The notes under the pieces were generated by a model. It saw nothing but the letters and a program-made list of their open reading frames with translations. It was not told the origin of the DNA and did not search any database. A stretch of 42,780 nt of DNA, taken from contig PNKH01000071.1 in the NCBI GenBank assembly GCA_013822345.1, positions 1 to 42,780 on the forward strand. The letters are read 5' to 3'. This DNA comes from Isosphaera sp. Its GTDB lineage: Bacteria > Planctomycetota > Planctomycetia > Gemmatales > Gemmataceae. Positions within the stretch are counted from its first letter, which is position 1, and each line of letters opens with the position of its first letter. Positions 1,140-6,721 of this stretch are shown here, one piece after another. The position numbers were made by a program, and so were the translations under genes.

Positions 1140-2708
1140 CTACCCGGGGAGGGCGTCGAGGGCGGCCTTCAGCTTCGCCCCGGCGTCCGGGCGGACCATC
1201 CGGACGAACGCGATCTTCCCGACCAGCCACGCCCGGAAGTCCGGTCGGCCGTCGCGGTTTTGGGCGGCCAGCCCCTCGGCCTTCGCCCGGTGGAGGATCG
1301 CCCGGAGCCGCCGCAGCTCGGCCCGGTCGACCGACGGCTTGTCGTTCACCACCACCCCGGTGACCGTCTGGGCGGCGCTGCGGCGCATCACCCGCGTCTT
1401 CGGCTCGTTCACCGCGAAGCCCTCCTCGCGGGCCACGTTCCGCACCTTCGCCAGCAGCCACCCGACCTTCTCGTTCAGCTCCGGGCCGCCGGAGAAGGTG
1501 AGGTCGTCGGCGTACCGGGTGTAGGTGAGCCCGAGCTTCCGGGCGACGCCGAGGAGCCGCCGGTCGAGCTTCCGGGCCACCTGGTTCGACAGCGCCGGGC
1601 TTGTCGGGGCGCCTTGGGGTAAGGCCCGCGGGCCGGTCGCCGCCTCGTACTTGGTGCCGGCGTAGGTGACGGCCGCCCGCGGGCACTCGGTGCAGAGCAG
1701 GGCGAGGACCGTCGCCACCGCCCCGGAGTACCCGTACCGCTCGAACACCGCCCGCACGCGCGCGAACACCACCGACGGGAAGAAGTCCGACAGGTCGAGG
1801 TTCACGACCACCGCCTTGCCGACGTGCGGGCCGGCGTTCGACACGATCCCCCGGCCGGCGACGAACCCGTGGGCGGCCTCCGTGACCGGGAACTTCGCGG
1901 CGACGTTCGCCAGCACCCACCGCTGGGCCGCCTTGAGCGTCTTGTGCGGGGCGGCGAGGGTGCGGGTGCCGCCGGACTTCTTCGACACCTGGAACTTGAC
2001 GTAGTGGGTGCGGGTGGCGACGTCGGTGTGGAACGCGAGCCAGCGGAGTTGCGTGATCGTGAGGCCGAGCGCCTTCGCCACGTCGGCGGGGGTGTGGAGC
2101 ACCGGCAGCCCGAACTCGGCGAGGCGCGTCTCGTCGCTCAGCCGGAGGTGGAGTTTGCCGGAGACGCAGCGGCCGAGGAAGATGATGTCGGTCGCCCGGC
2201 GGGTCGCGACCGCCTCGGCCCGGTCCTTCTTCCGGGCGGCGGACTCGGCCTTCTTCTGGGCCTTCCGCCGCTCTTTCTCGGCCCGGTACGCCCGGACCGC
2301 TGCGTCGCCGGCGAGCCCGGCCGCGGCCGCCAGGTTCGCCTCGGTCGGCTTCGCTTTCTCGTACTCCTCGCCGACGCGGTGGATCTCGGCCAGCTCCTCC
2401 GGGCTGAGCAGCCCGGCGGTGACCATCGCCCGGTCGATGAGCTGGGTCCGCGGGTCGGAGGTCGGCGGGATCACGCTCGGCCGGCCGAACTGGAACGCGG
2501 TCGAGAGGAGGTTCCCGGACTTCGCCGCCGCGACGATCTCGCCCCGGGTCACCGGCAGGAACTCGGACCCGTACGGGTCGGCGACGGGCGGGGGCGGACT
2601 TGGCGAGCCGGGAGCGTCAGCGACCGGAGGCGGCAGGGGTGGGGGCGGCGCGGGCGGTTCGGGGTCGGGCTTGCGGGTGCGGCGGAACAGCCAGTCGAAC
2701 GCGCTCAT
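1140..2708 (-). CDS. Retron-type reverse transcriptase (522 aa)
   Basis: It reverse-transcribes the msd part of its partner RNA to give msDNA. Visible motifs: retron NAxxH signature (NAGPH, 291-295), motif A DLSDFFPS (305-312, Asp305/Asp308), motif B QGAPTSP (365-371), catalytic YADD (399-402), motif D NEPKTR (434-439), and the retron VTG (449-451). Residues 200-260 (GLTITQLRWLAFH, SGGTRTLAAPHK) match the myxobacterial Mx162-type RTs I know. The N terminus is long: a proline-rich segment (17-44), then a charged coiled-coil-like helix (about 140-170). The frame stays open upstream to 3005, but that would translate the structured RNA. The ATG at 2708 has an AGGAAG ribosome-binding site. It is the last gene of the operon. 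No DGR or group II intron maturase features are seen. Confidence 0.95.
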   Translation of the reverse strand: MSAFDWLFRRTRKPDPEPPAPPPPLPPPVADAPGSPSPPPPVADPYGSEFLPVTRGEIVAAAKSGNLLSTAFQFGRPSVIPPTSDPRTQLIDRAMVTAGLLSPEELAEIHRVGEEYEKAKPTEANLAAAAGLAGDAAVRAYRAEKERRKAQKKAESAARKKDRAEAVATRRATDIIFLGRCVSGKLHLRLSDETRLAEFGLPVLHTPADVAKALGLTITQLRWLAFHTDVATRTHYVKFQVSKKSGGTRTLAAPHKTLKAAQRWVLANVAAKFPVTEAAHGFVAGRGIVSNAGPHVGKAVVVNLDLSDFFPSVVFARVRAVFERYGYSGAVATVLALLCTECPRAAVTYAGTKYEAATGPRALPQGAPTSPALSNQVARKLDRRLLGVARKLGLTYTRYADDLTFSGGPELNEKVGWLLAKVRNVAREEGFAVNEPKTRVMRRSAAQTVTGVVVNDKPSVDRAELRRLRAILHRAKAEGLAAQNRDGRPDFRAWLVGKIAFVRMVRPDAGAKLKAALDALPG

Positions 2709-2716
2709 GGGTCGCT

Positions 2717-2794
2717 CTTCCTGGACCGCGGCCGTCTCGGCCGCTCTTCGGGGGCGTGTCGCGGGAGCGGCCGAGACGGCCGCGGTCCAGGAAG
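2717..2794 (-). promoter_or_regulatory. Perfect 29-bp hairpin covering the RT ribosome-binding site
   Basis: The arms 2717-2745 and 2766-2794 are exact reverse complements with a 20-base loop. On the transcript the RT Shine-Dalgarno (AGGAAG, complement of 2717-2722) is the last part of the 3' arm, so folding would hide it. The stem core (CGCGGCCGTC and complement) recurs in the hairpin at 10948-11037, so this is a member of a dispersed palindrome family placed between the msr-msd RNA and its RT. Confidence 0.75.
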
Positions 2795-2813
2795 AACAAC
2801 AACGGGTGGCCGG

Positions 2814-2996
2814 GTCCGACTTCGATCCGGGACCAGAGTCGTTCACGACCGCCGGGATATCCACCCCCGGGCGGGGAACGCTGGTTGGCTCAGTCCCGCC
2901 CGGGGGTGAATATCCCGGCGAAAAGACCAACGGCTCTGGGGACGCATCGCAAGCCAACGTCACCCGCGGCGGAGCGCCGCAGAGGAAGTCTCGGAC
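2814..2996 (-). ncRNA. Retron msr-msd RNA, copy 1 (RT-proximal)
   Basis: Read on the minus strand, the element starts with a1 (GTCCGAGACTTC, 2996-2985) and ends with a2 (GAAGTCGGAC, 2823-2814), which pair with a 2-base bulge. After a1 comes a short msr hairpin (about 2982-2964, GCGGCG..CGCCGC). Then an 11-bp outer helix (2939-2929 with 2843-2833) encloses a 26-bp msd stem (2920-2895 with 2875-2850, one G-U pair) capped by a 19-base loop containing ACTGAGCCAACC. The order a1-msr-msd-a2-RT is the standard retron order. It begins 24 bases after the WH-SWIM stop codon, and I see no private promoter, so it is probably processed from the operon transcript. Copy 2 at 4744-4936 confirms the structure by covariation. 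Confidence 0.9.
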
Positions 2997-3020
2997 ACCG
3001 GCCACCCGAAGACGCAGTGT

Positions 3021-4715
3021 TCAGTTCACGAACCGCTTGTACCAGGCGTCGAGGCCGCCGGCCTCCTGCCCGACGCCGAGGAGCTTGTTCCGGACCGCCT
3101 GGAGGTGCCGGCACGGCCCCTTCCGCAGGCCCCCGGTGTAGAAGTACGAGCACCCGCACTTCCCCGCCACGATCCGGTCGTCGGCGTCGAGCGTCAGCTC
3201 CACCTCCGACCGCCCGTCCACGACCGCCCGGACGTGCCGGCCCTTCGCGTCGCTGCCGTCGGCGGTCACCCGCACCTTCCACCCGGTGATCTGCCGGGCC
3301 GCCACCGTCTCCTCGTTCTCCGGCCCGATCACCTCGGCCGACAGCGTCACCGGCATCACCTGCCGCCACCGGTAGACGCCGTGCGGCAGGTCGTGGATCA
3401 CCTGGCCGAGCAGGGCGAGCTTGTTCAGCCCGGCCGACACCACCGGGGCCGCCGCGTGGGTCCGTTCGGCGAGGGCGGCCAGCGTCCACGTCGGGTTGGT
3501 GCGGAACGCCTCGGCGATCCCGCGCATCACGTCCGCCGACGGCTCGACCGGCGGGGCGAGTTGGTCGATCGCACTGCCGCCGCTCGTCCAGTCGTTCGCC
3601 GTCCACCCGGACAGCCCGAGGGTCAGCTGCATCTCGCCCATCCGGCACACCCAGAACGCCGGCAGGCCGGTCCCGAGGAGGTACACGTCGGCCCGGTCGA
3701 GGAGCGGCAGGAGCCGGCCGAGGACGCGAAGCCGGTCGCGGCCCCAGACGCGGATCACCTCCGCCTTCGGCCCGGGGTACGGGGTGTCGTGCAGGACGAC
3801 CTCCTTGCCCCACGGCTCCAGGACGATCCGCACCGGCTCGCCGGGCTTCAGCTCGAACCGCACCGCCCGCGGCGACGCCTTGGCCTTGTGCCGCCGCAGG
3901 AACGCGACGAGCGAGTACAGCCCTTCGCGGCTCACCGGCACCCGCTTCGCCGGCAGGCTCATCGCCGACTGGAGCGTGGCGAACCCGCGCAGCCACGATT
4001 GCGGCAGCTCGATCTTCTCCTCGCGGTAGCCGCCGTCGCCGGCCTGGCTCGTCTGCACCTCGAACCCCTGCGGGTCGATCGCGAACCGCGTCTCCCGGTA
4101 GCTGCGGATCGTCTGGAAGTGCTCGTACAGCCGCCACGAGTAGTCGACGTTCGTGGTTCCCAGCGCGACGTCCGACTCGGACACGAACGCGTCCCGCTGG
4201 ACGTTGAGGCAGCCGTAGCTGCTCTCGTCGGAGCTGAAGCACTCGAAGAACAGGACATCCGGGCTGACGGTGATGACCGGGTCGCACGGCAGGAGCATCC
4301 GCCACAGCTCCGGGTCCTCGCGGGCCAGCAGGTTGCCGTACTTGTTCCGGGCGTCCCAGTACCGCCGGCGGCACTTCTCGAACCGCCCCTCCAGCCCCGC
4401 CGGCATCGGCTTGTTCCGCTCCTTCTCCAGCTCGGCCCGCCGGAGCTTCACCGCCTCGGTCCGGACGCGCCGCTCGAACTCGGCCTCGGCCTTCTTCCAC
4501 TCCTCGTACCCGGCCTTGCTCTTCGGCTTGAACCGGAGGTCGGAGATGACGACATCGTGGAGCGCCGACACCGCCTCGCGGAACCGGAGCGGGTGCTTCA
4601 GGGCCCCGACGTAGCTGACCCGGTCGCGGCGGAGGTTCGGGGCGAGCGACACCGCCAGCCCGACCGCCGTCTGGGCGACCTGACTCCGACCACGGTACGC
4701 GACGGCCAACTGCAT
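3021..4715 (-). CDS. Winged-helix + SWIM zinc-finger retron accessory protein (564 aa)
   Basis: The C terminus holds a SWIM zinc finger: Cys520-x-Cys522-x12-Cys535-x-His537. Residues about 392-451 look like a winged helix (TLAALAERT helix-turn-helix, then a GVYRWR wing). The N-terminal 390 residues are unrecognised: a charged helical region at about 75-125, then mixed alpha/beta. SWIM and winged-helix domains normally bind nucleic acid, so the protein probably contacts msDNA or target DNA; this is inference. As I recall, WH-SWIM proteins are listed partners of type XIII retron RTs. The ATG has AGGTGG a few bases upstream. The gene sits between the two msr-msd RNAs, with copy 2 forming most of its leader and copy 1 starting 24 bases after its stop. 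No nuclease motif is visible. Confidence 0.88.
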   Translation of the reverse strand: MQLAVAYRGRSQVAQTAVGLAVSLAPNLRRDRVSYVGALKHPLRFREAVSALHDVVISDLRFKPKSKAGYEEWKKAEAEFERRVRTEAVKLRRAELEKERNKPMPAGLEGRFEKCRRRYWDARNKYGNLLAREDPELWRMLLPCDPVITVSPDVLFFECFSSDESSYGCLNVQRDAFVSESDVALGTTNVDYSWRLYEHFQTIRSYRETRFAIDPQGFEVQTSQAGDGGYREEKIELPQSWLRGFATLQSAMSLPAKRVPVSREGLYSLVAFLRRHKAKASPRAVRFELKPGEPVRIVLEPWGKEVVLHDTPYPGPKAEVIRVWGRDRLRVLGRLLPLLDRADVYLLGTGLPAFWVCRMGEMQLTLGLSGWTANDWTSGGSAIDQLAPPVEPSADVMRGIAEAFRTNPTWTLAALAERTHAAAPVVSAGLNKLALLGQVIHDLPHGVYRWRQVMPVTLSAEVIGPENEETVAARQITGWKVRVTADGSDAKGRHVRAVVDGRSEVELTLDADDRIVAGKCGCSYFYTGGLRKGPCRHLQAVRNKLLGVGQEAGGLDAWYKRFVN

Positions 4716-4743
4716 GACGCCACCTGGTGTTCGCGGTGCCCGC

Positions 4744-4936
4744 CGCGGCCGACTTCGATCGAGGACCCGAGACGTTCACGACCGCCGGCCGGCCGACCGG
4801 TCCGGCTGGAAACGTCGGTTGGTTCAGTCCGCCGGACCGGTCGGCCGGCCGGCGAAAAGACCAACGGCTCGGGGGACGCAATCGCGAGCAACTTCTGCCG
4901 CGGCGGAACGCCGCAGCGTGGTAGTCTCGGACCGCG
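4744..4936 (-). ncRNA. Retron msr-msd RNA, copy 2 (WH-SWIM-proximal)
   Basis: Homologue of copy 1 with the same plan on the minus strand: a1 (CGCGGTCCGAGACT, 4936-4923), msr hairpin (about 4917-4898), outer 11-bp helix (4874-4864 with 4776-4766, one mismatch), a perfect 24-bp msd stem (4854-4831 with 4806-4783), a 24-base loop containing ACTGAACCAACC, and a2 ending near 4744. Flanks (for example GAGCCGTTGGTCTTTTCG and GGTCGTGAACG) are nearly identical to copy 1. The msd stem sequence is unrelated, yet every position pairs. In the outer helix one A-T pair became C-G. It lies 18 bases after the ARM gene and forms the leader of the WH-SWIM gene. Confidence 0.88.
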
Positions 4937-4954
4937 ACGGACACCGTGACTCGG

Positions 4955-6721
4955 TCAACTCCAACTCAGTTCGGGGAACACCGCCTCGACCAGCGGCCGC
5001 CGCGTCGGGTTCCGCGCCACGAACGCGGCGACGCCCGCCAGCCCGGCCCGGAACTCGGGGCCGCGCACCGACCGCAGCGCCACCGCCACGATCGGGAACA
5101 GCTCGCCGGCGTGGTCCGGGTGCGCCGTCACGTGGTCGATCATCTGCCGGACCACGAACGGCTTCGCCCGGCTGCCGCGCTCGGCGTTCAACAGCACCGA
5201 CGCCCACAGGAAGCGGACGTGCTCCGGGGAGAACGCCGCCAGCCCGTCGCGCCCCTTCGCCCGCTCCTCCAGCATCCCCACCAGGCGGAGCCGGAGGTTG
5301 TCGTACGGCGACTCCAGGAGCCGTTGCCAGACGGTCACGTCCTCCCGGGCGCGGGCGTCCGTCTGCAAGAACTCCCAGCCGATCTCGCGGACGTCCTCGT
5401 GCCGTGCGTCGAGGAACTCGAGCACCCAGAGCGGGCGGAAGTCGGGCCGGGCCGCGAGCACCCCGCACGCCCACCGCACCAAGCCCGGCCGCAGCGGCTC
5501 CGCCTGGGCCTCCCGCAGCCCGAACAGCGCCTGCACGTCAGTGTCGGTCGCCGGCGCCTTCCCTTCGAGGAAGCTGCGGCCGAGGCGGGCGAGCGGGATC
5601 GGCCGCTGCATCCCCAGCCGGACCGCGTCGGCGAACGACACCTGCTCCGGCCGCACCACCCGGGCGACCAGCTCGCAGATCCGGTCGAGCAGGTCGGGTC
5701 GGGCCTGCTCGGTGAGCGCCAGCCACCGCTCGACCGGTACCGCGTTCAGCCCGCCGGCCCGCTCCAGGAACTCGACCGCGAGGTCGTTCAGCACCGCGTT
5801 CTCGGACACGAGCCAGGTGAGCAGGTCGTCGAGCGTCAGGGCCGCGAGCCGCTCCGGGAAGTGCTCGCGGAGCATCTTCGCCGCCCACAAGCAGACCGGC
5901 CGGCACTTCGCGTTCACCAGCAGGTCGAAGAGCGGTTCGGAACTCCTCAACCACAGTTGCCGGTAGATCGGGTCCGGCCGTAGCAGGGCGAGCGCCCCGG
6001 TCCCCGACGCGAACCACCCGCGGGGCGTCGCCTCCAGCACCTGCGAGTGGTGGAACAGGACGTGGACGAGGCCCCAGTTGTCGAGCAGCCCGAGGCCGTC
6101 CGGGACGTCCGCGTCGGTGTACAGCTTCAGGGCGGTGCAGACGGCCGGGACGTAGCGGTCCGGGTGCTTCCGGCCGAGCCGGCGGAAGTACCGCCACGCC
6201 CGCCGCCGCAGGTACTGCCGGGTCGGCACCGAGAACAGGAACTTCCCGGCGACGAACTTCTCACGGTTCTGGGCGAACCACGACCCGAGGTACGTCCGGT
6301 CCTCCCGTGACAGCGTGGTGTCACCCGGGGTGAGGACGGTCTCGACGTTGTCGTAGGAGCGGGTGCGGGGGTTCCACTGCTGGGCGGTGCCGCGCTTCCG
6401 CCGGATCGTGCGGTCGAGGCCGACCAGGAACCGGGCCATGACCGCGTCGTCCCCGGCGGTGTCGGCGAACTTGAACAGCCGCTTCACCAGCGGCTCGTGC
6501 CGGGGGCTGTTGAGCGGCCGTTCGAGGTATGCGAACAGCATCCGCCGGGCCTCGACGCGGGTGTCCGCGTACCACGTCTCGGCGAGGGTCGCCAGGCCCG
6601 GGGCGTTCACCCGCTGGCGGACCATCTCGACGAACTCCGGCGACCCGGCCTGGAACAGCCGCAGGGTGCGGTCCCAGGCCGCGTCGCCGGGGTTGGTCGG
6701 CGGTTTCCGGTCCCTCGCCAC
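4955..6721 (-). CDS. ARM/HEAT-like repeat protein, first gene of retron operon (588 aa)
   Basis: Almost wholly alpha-helical, built of repeated helix pairs (for example LRLRLVGMLEERAK, VREIGWEFLQTDA, AAKMLREHFPERLAALTLDDLLTWLV), as expected for an ARM/HEAT solenoid. No enzymatic motif, signal peptide or membrane segment is visible. Such solenoids usually scaffold protein or nucleic acid. As I recall, an ARM-repeat protein is a reported partner of type XIII retrons. The frame extends to a TTG at 6775, but that codon lies inside the -35 box. The GTG at 6721 has GGAG 8 bases upstream and sits about 20 bases after the predicted transcription start, so it is preferred. Copy 2 of the msr-msd RNA follows its stop after 18 bases. 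Confidence 0.85.
   Translation of the reverse strand: MARDRKPPTNPGDAAWDRTLRLFQAGSPEFVEMVRQRVNAPGLATLAETWYADTRVEARRMLFAYLERPLNSPRHEPLVKRLFKFADTAGDDAVMARFLVGLDRTIRRKRGTAQQWNPRTRSYDNVETVLTPGDTTLSREDRTYLGSWFAQNREKFVAGKFLFSVPTRQYLRRRAWRYFRRLGRKHPDRYVPAVCTALKLYTDADVPDGLGLLDNWGLVHVLFHHSQVLEATPRGWFASGTGALALLRPDPIYRQLWLRSSEPLFDLLVNAKCRPVCLWAAKMLREHFPERLAALTLDDLLTWLVSENAVLNDLAVEFLERAGGLNAVPVERWLALTEQARPDLLDRICELVARVVRPEQVSFADAVRLGMQRPIPLARLGRSFLEGKAPATDTDVQALFGLREAQAEPLRPGLVRWACGVLAARPDFRPLWVLEFLDARHEDVREIGWEFLQTDARAREDVTVWQRLLESPYDNLRLRLVGMLEERAKGRDGLAAFSPEHVRFLWASVLLNAERGSRAKPFVVRQMIDHVTAHPDHAGELFPIVAVALRSVRGPEFRAGLAGVAAFVARNPTRRPLVEAVFPELSWS

Follow-up and report, generated by a model that had tools for sequence, protein, structure and literature searches.

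A planctomycete type XIII retron whose reverse transcriptase probably serves several msr-msd RNAs

We analysed a 42,780-nt stretch of DNA from the planctomycete Isosphaera sp. (family Gemmataceae; assembly GCA_013822345.1, contig PNKH01000071.1, positions 1 to 42,780 of the forward strand; hereafter the window), which carries a retron reverse transcriptase (RT) gene together with two msr-msd RNAs, the templates from which retrons make multicopy single-stranded DNA (msDNA). A single type XIII RT probably serves several separate msr-msd RNAs in this genome, each folding through its own a1/a2 duplex. Because the parts that the RT would recognise are common to the copies and each copy forms a unit of its own, the production of several msDNAs by one RT is the most likely reading of the data below. 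An a1/a2 duplex, an msr hairpin and an msd hairpin make up the general retron anatomy, and in Retron-Eco1 (Ec86), as in the other structurally solved retrons, each RT normally has one msr-msd; the window's genome departs from this state, which is usual rather than a strict definition.

Two complete msr-msd RNAs at one retron locus

By its gene content, the locus is a type XIII retron (type names follow the PADLOC classes), with RT_XIII, SWIM_XIII and HEAT-ARM_XIII matches in a row on one strand, a predicted operon. Read along the minus strand, window positions 1140-6721 hold a HEAT/ARM-repeat gene, RNA copy 1, a SWIM zinc-finger gene, RNA copy 2 and the RT gene. The RNA features are listed here, with scores from covariance model R1, which was built partly from copies 1 and 2 themselves.

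2798..3010, minus strand: msr-msd RNA copy 2, between the SWIM and RT genes, from a1 to a2 (covariance model R1, 194 bits, E 3e-43; alignments)
2850..2920, minus strand: variable msd hairpin of copy 2, arms 2850-2875 and 2895-2920 (inverted repeat; fold z score -7.2)
2964..2982, minus strand: msr hairpin of copy 2, CTGCGGCG-CTC-CGCCGCGG (alignment helix, 100% of cells paired)
4731..4946, minus strand: msr-msd RNA copy 1, between the HEAT-ARM and SWIM genes, from a1 to a2 (covariance model R1, 204 bits, E 1.5e-45)
4783..4854, minus strand: variable msd hairpin of copy 1, arms 4783-4806 and 4831-4854 (inverted repeat, 100%; fold z score -8.6)
4898..4916, minus strand: msr hairpin of copy 1, CTGCGGCG-TTC-CGCCGCGG (alignment helix, 100% of cells paired)

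Both RNAs are structurally complete and lie where the original prediction had placed two msr-msd RNAs for one retron RT; pairs of copies also occur in relatives. Alignments bore out that they have in common the msr hairpin (CTGCGGCG-NNN-CGCCGCGG), the msd base stem and loops that resemble each other and contain CTGA and C(A/G)ACC, and revealed a conserved stretch around TTGCGATTGCGTCCCC that is one base shorter in copy 2. The inner stems are unrelated in sequence, and an inverted-repeat search agreed with the near-perfect pairing expected of them: the 26-nt arms of copy 2 are 96% complementary, with one G-U pair in the RNA, and the 24-nt arms of copy 1 are 100% complementary. Common a1/a2 sequences had also been predicted, wrongly, as each copy has its own, copy-specific pair. 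In single-strand folding of the hairpins of copy 2, copy 1 and a third copy on contig C40 (z = -7.2, -8.6 and -7.3, respectively), none of 200 dinucleotide shuffles did as well in any of the three cases. Rfam gave no match at the gathering threshold, and below it only unrelated families (hairpin microRNA models) appeared, the best of them reaching 31.1 bits where a gathering score of 90 applies. No conserved promoter directly upstream of the copies was seen by eye in 38 upstream stretches.

Pairing is retained across the family despite the divergence of the stems. An alignment of 31 copies, drawn from 46 full copies and used for structure, covariation and the covariance model, had 92.9% of its cells paired, as compared to 73.5% when shuffled and 37-44% when slid, the latter comparison favouring the real alignment because the structure was derived from it. 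Cells changed on both sides numbered 346 (117 +/- 9 in shuffled alignments), and 25 of the 27 inner-stem pairs had changes on both sides. The 65 copies from 27 genomes that remained after setting aside two matches cut by contig ends (in genomes G089 and G092) and two fragments (G012, G013) had 1583 Watson-Crick, 38 G-U and 21 mismatched pairs in their stems, and 46 of them lacked any mismatch; stem limits were set for best pairing, which favours high values. Stem length ranged from 15 to 28 bp (median 26). Thus, the situation that could have spoken against the prediction, pairing kept by only one of the copies in relatives, was not seen in general among these copies. The stems had been called 'fully compensated', and covariation is indeed strong, but the word understates the change, as hairpins are replaced whole (see below).

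To what extent each part follows position or genome was compared for 38 copies from 15 genomes (14 of the window's genus plus G090). Identity of a1+a2 was 0.80 for the same position in different genomes vs. 0.45 between copies within a genome; permutation gave 0.433 +/- 0.010 for the within-genome value of 0.451 (77 of 2000 as high). In 64 of 68 within-genome tests (two of the 38 copies left out), the a1 and a2 of a copy paired better with each other than with those of another copy, so that each copy appears as a unit of its own; window copy 2's a1 with the orphan's a2 is among the four exceptions. The msd base, however, was more alike within genomes than expected from permutation within positions (0.852 vs. 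0.789 +/- 0.013; 0 of 2000), whereas the msr showed no such excess (0.783 vs. 0.799 +/- 0.009; 1960 of 2000 as high) and the loop was neutral (813 of 2000). As the msd base lies inside the part expected to be reverse-transcribed and the msr outside it, either msDNA converts sister genes or the copies adapt to one RT. Stem arms carried no genome signal (1083 and 1397 of 2000) and a partial position signal, with identities of 0.39-0.46 at the same position vs. 0.35-0.40 otherwise.

The three protein genes of the locus are:

1140..2708, minus strand: retron reverse transcriptase, type XIII (PADLOC RT_XIII, 4.8e-155; Pfam RVT_1; NAGPH, YADD and VTG motifs)
3021..4715, minus strand: SWIM zinc-finger protein of type XIII retrons, A subtype (PADLOC SWIM_XIII, 2.7e-179)
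4955..6721, minus strand: HEAT/ARM-repeat protein of type XIII retrons (PADLOC HEAT-ARM_XIII, 6.2e-174; start codon uncertain)

Retron RTs are defined by the motifs NAxxH, YxDD and VTG. All three were present, as NAGPH, YADD and VTG in the window, in each of the 25 A-type RTs inspected (for A type, see below), and VTG is named as a retron RT motif in a passage of PMC6868368. By sequence, the best solved relative of the window RT is the Ec86 RT (3e-41). A sequence search for a solved structural relative of the SWIM protein found none, and its AlphaFold model, built from 10 sequences, had a mean predicted local distance difference test score (pLDDT) of 50 and was not used. SWIM relatives in viral contigs were confined to a single locus, where 171 bases matched at the edge of a contig. 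At positions 2711-2800, the space separating copy 2 from the RT gene contains a palindrome whose 36-nt arms are 94% complementary; as most of 74 in-genome matches fall on this element, it is taken as a dispersed repeat resembling repetitive extragenic palindromes.

Copies in cis and in trans among relatives

The survey covered 95 genomes of the family, the window's being G000. SWIM_XIII was present in 38 of them, in 26 as the window's A type and otherwise mainly as B type, two labels of our own that derive from profile coordinates and tblastn scores rather than from a tree. The covariance model search of Gemmataceae that the original prediction had proposed returned 69 matches in 28 of the 95 genomes, including all 26 with A-type SWIM. 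Two of the 69 genomes without A-type SWIM have the RNA, G013 as a decayed fragment and G024 as one orphan copy; in G024, the A-type SWIM gene is reduced to a remnant. At least two matches were found in 21 of the 28 genomes, up to a maximum of seven in G074, with the second match of G092 being a piece at a contig end. With positions assigned by neighbouring genes, and many assemblies being fragmented, the order HEAT, non-coding region, SWIM, non-coding region, RT recurred among relatives, and four loci (L048, L056, L058, L064) had two copies upstream of SWIM plus one between SWIM and RT. The maximum per genome was three copies in cis and five away from retron genes.

L049 (G001, contig C1) has the HEAT gene, non-coding region and SWIM gene with no RT found adjoining, and a strong RT_XIII match lies on contig C7. 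L052 (G043, C16) and L065 (G029, C345) encode SWIM and RT but are remote from the A type (tblastn scores of ~320), and their profile ends resemble neither A nor B. Between SWIM and RT, L052 has a weak R1 match on the genes' strand (30 bits, E 1.9e-5), perhaps a divergent relative of the RNA; none is listed for L065.

Across phyla, the RNA was found at 72 of 80 type XIII loci retrieved by name (Planctomycetota, Verrucomicrobiota and Myxococcota among others), which identifies it as the RNA of type XIII retrons. One copy was present at 58 of these loci and two or more at 14 (two of the 14 counting a contig-end piece); the counts were made by eye, and the 80 loci overlap with the family genomes and are hence not independent of them. 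As the 14 multi-copy loci are mostly from Gemmataceae, with one Paludisphaera and one Phycisphaeraceae locus of two copies each, possession of several copies is, on present sequences, chiefly a Gemmataceae state. A phylum-wide search with R1, which scored six candidates per genome and may therefore undercount, found the RNA in at least 11 of 392 genomes including the window's; the other 10 had one match each, three of them weak.

The copies away from retron genes, here called orphans, include the third complete copy of the window's genome. It lies on contig C40 between NfeD-like and FloA genes and on their strand, has a different, perfectly paired stem, and there is no RT, SWIM or HEAT gene within the 17 kb inspected. 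In total, 17 orphans were counted in 13 genomes (some on contigs of only 3-6 kb), copies adjoining an RT or HEAT gene (L127, L129, L130, L132, L135) being assigned to cis copies in broken assemblies. Two sites common to several genomes account for 11 of the 17: O1 (NfeD/FloA; G000, G015, G018, G022) and O2 (3′ of a WD40/PSCyt1 gene; G009, G010, G011, G012, G024, G025, G090, plus the fragment in G013), with neighbour names taken from Pfam for loci L011 and L116. Five of the remaining copies occupy three sites in G074 and one is in G044. Each O1 and O2 copy follows a host gene on the same strand, so that these copies are probably transcribed by read-through. Around the O2 copies of G011 (L118) and G012 (L119), further RNA pieces lie ~1.2-1.3 kb off, as a duplication or an interrupting insertion would leave them. 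In G074, three tandem copies, each with a different stem, are located ~1.1 kb downstream of a RecJ gene with no retron gene nearby (L125, C1:1875187-1875890).

The same genomes often encode a B-type retron. The window's genome has one on contig C78 (SWIM plus RT; L012), and 13 of 19 genomes of the genus combine one A with one B type. The A-type RNA was not found in 13 B-type loci inspected, several of which have, between SWIM and RT, short non-coding blocks that are conserved and perhaps represent an RNA of their own.

Replacement and retention of stems

The clearest case of stem replacement comes from G009 and G010, whose RT proteins are 99% identical (96.4% at the DNA level). At the upstream and middle positions, their RNAs are 100% identical in a1/a2, 98% in msr and 96-98% in the msd base, with loops at 94% and 71%. 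The arms at these positions have identities of 0.22-0.38, the level of unrelated stems, and the O2 stems differ as well. With arms unrelated next to near-identical a1/a2, msr and base, the stems have been replaced as whole hairpins. Stems in the multi-copy lineage thus last for a while before being replaced in one piece. Partial replacement may occur too, as G015 (L054) and G025 (L051) have in common the loop-side half of the stem in their first upstream copy (ACCGGTGCGGCG) but not the outer half.

Stems might change simply through frequent mutation, long inverted repeats acting as hot spots at which template switching restores symmetry, so that only pairing matters and sequence is neutral. 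Near-perfect pairing with free sequence, as seen here, would follow, as would an excess of internal dyads in the arms. Such an excess was found: among 43 distinct arms from 45 of the 46 full copies (one holds an N), imperfect dyad symmetry, summed over arms, exceeded that of dinucleotide shuffles (0 of 500 as high) and of GC-matched windows of the same loci (0 of 300). For 63 family arms, the dyad sum was 288 vs. 251 +/- 6.8 in shuffles (0 of 400), and the same test gave 3 of 400 for 17 orphan arms and 29 of 400 for 26 arms from outside the family. Perfect palindromes of 4 and 6 bases were not significant in the arms (76 and 64 of 500 shuffles as high), those of 8 bases borderline (16 of 500). 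Dyads, however, would be expected from template switching and from protein-binding sites alike. Two observations run counter to the hot-spot explanation, which we judge somewhat unlikely. First, ten genomes outside Gemmataceae, all single-copy and with stems of 18-27 bp, keep the stem at RT DNA identities of 88.7-94.0%, with 0-2 changes in the 5′ arm. This control comprises four groups (four Polyangium, of whose six pairs four were measured; two Singulisphaera; Prosthecobacter with a Verrucomicrobiaceae relative; and Myxococcus with Pyxidicoccus). Second, replacement looks all-or-none, the G009/G010 arms being unrelated at two positions and identical (1.0) at a third.

Alternatively, stems may be driven to differ because cross-pairing or recombination of paralogous msDNAs and genes in one cell must be avoided, which would yield diversity without a sensing role. 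Consistently, no stem was common to copies in 70 within-genome pairs, the best local arm match (score 10) occurring in one pair; own a1/a2 pairing mostly beats cross-pairing, as described above; and hypervariability was seen in the multi-copy lineage. Yet avoidance requires only that stems differ within a genome and leaves the replacement of orthologous stems between close relatives unexplained. We regard it as an unlikely account, although, like neutrality by template switching, it is a serious rival to the idea that different stems widen the range of triggers.

Probable use of the copies as templates

That only the RT-adjoining copy serves as template, the others being duplicated remnants kept by chance for a while, seems improbable. 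It would fit the single copy per locus that is usual across phyla, often between SWIM and RT, as well as the decayed or interrupted orphans: the O2 copy of G013 (a genome without A-type SWIM) is decayed, that of G012 is apparently interrupted, with its 5′ piece ~1.2 kb before the remainder, and an extra piece lies near that of G011. The persistence of an orphan in G024 fits as well. However, upstream and orphan copies keep near-perfect pairing, a conserved msr and loop, and sites common between species, and the msd base is more alike within genomes than expected. In addition, five loci (L046, L053, L054, L067, L069) have an upstream copy and an RT with no copy found between SWIM and RT. As to retrotransposed remnants, Lampson and Rice reportedly described in 1997, to go by the title, repetitive msDNA-like sequences in the Nannocystis exedens chromosome as a possible retrotransposition event. 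The present family differs, for the most part, in consisting of complete msr-msd units with covarying stems: most orphans are complete and 11 of 17 are at common sites, but there are fragments or interruptions in G012 and G013 and the additional piece near the G011 copy, and the three G074 sites are private to that genome.

Several points weigh against one RT making several msDNAs from stems that are exchanged. Seven of the 28 genomes have one match only (some being incomplete assemblies, and one match being the G013 fragment). G024 keeps its intact orphan though no A-type RT was recognised in the assembly, so an intact copy is no proof of present use. The B-type RT on C78 and a third RT on C3 of the window's genome could in principle use some copies. 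Nor is replacement universal: the second upstream stem of G009 and G010 is identical; G009 and G012 (RT DNA identity 90.3%) have letter-for-letter the same first upstream stem and a largely common O2 stem; and the middle stems of G011, G012 and G017 are similar, showing that stems can last.

Under the favoured reading, that one type XIII RT uses several templates, each copy would fold through its own a1/a2 duplex and be recognised through the msr hairpin and msd base that all copies have in common. The RT would prime, by analogy with other retrons, probably at the G of CCGAG directly after a1 and copy the variable hairpin, giving msDNAs with common ends, a similar loop and different duplex stems. 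Templates would be supplied both in cis (from the HEAT-SWIM-RT locus) and in trans, with transcription of each copy, reverse transcription and the priming site all being presumed. In other retrons, msDNA restrains partner proteins until a phage acts. By analogy, the msDNAs may keep the HEAT and SWIM proteins inactive until these are disturbed by a phage, and the several stems could, as a guess, be baits or locks for phage proteins that trigger these partners. A retron with a repertoire, in which several msDNAs from cis and trans templates bear the duplex as an exchangeable cassette, swapped whole between strains with hardly any change in ends and loop, and different stems watch different phage proteins, is a tentative extension that we consider possible but less likely than not. 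A passage of PMC6868368 describes RT and msr as a pair and the msd as exchangeable between retrons.

That the stems instead derive from phage or host DNA and serve as probes for specific sequences is very improbable: quick hairpin turnover, arms rich in imperfect dyads like those of operator sites, and 30 of 4371 arm pairs with a local score of at least 11 (3.7 in shuffles; close orthologues included, some at unrelated positions) could be cited in its favour, but three stems lacked a second site at up to two mismatches in host or genus genomes, and searches of genomes and viral contigs lent no support to copying. Specifically, the window copy 2 stem had no second site in its own genome at up to two mismatches and four sites at three; the G010 middle stem had none in 19 genus genomes at up to two; and the G010 upstream stem had none at up to two and two single sites at three, below a reversed-pattern control. 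Viral contigs matching four stem words of 19, 17, 16 and 21 bases numbered 0, 1, 12 and 0, respectively.

With respect to known systems, the locus resembles other type XIII retrons in all three proteins, in gene order and in having the same RNA family as loci in other phyla, but those mostly have one RNA copy (58 of 72 loci), whereas the window's genome has two in cis and one in trans and its Gemmataceae relatives reach three in cis and five in trans, the stems being replaceable. It resembles Retron-Eco1 in its homologous RT and in the layout of a1/a2, msr hairpin and msd hairpin. Diversity-generating retroelements are likewise RT-linked and have one hypervariable part between constant flanks; here, in contrast, the change concerns a whole hairpin and pairing is kept. 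A search of open-access literature by title and abstract returned no paper on several templates per retron RT, and we make no claim to novelty in print.

The purpose of retron msDNA, and which part of it is read, are still being worked out, and retrons are used for genome editing. In this context, the family offers a natural experiment, with a conserved msr, base and loop, a variable duplex, several variants per cell and replacement between near-identical genomes, which sets the parts required by the RT apart from the variable ones and allows the notion of the stem as sensor to be tested directly. If the favoured reading is true, a natural RT that accepts several cis and trans templates with different stems would be a useful chassis for genome editing; if the more tentative repertoire reading also holds, the retron would diversify its sensing in the manner of a receptor repertoire.
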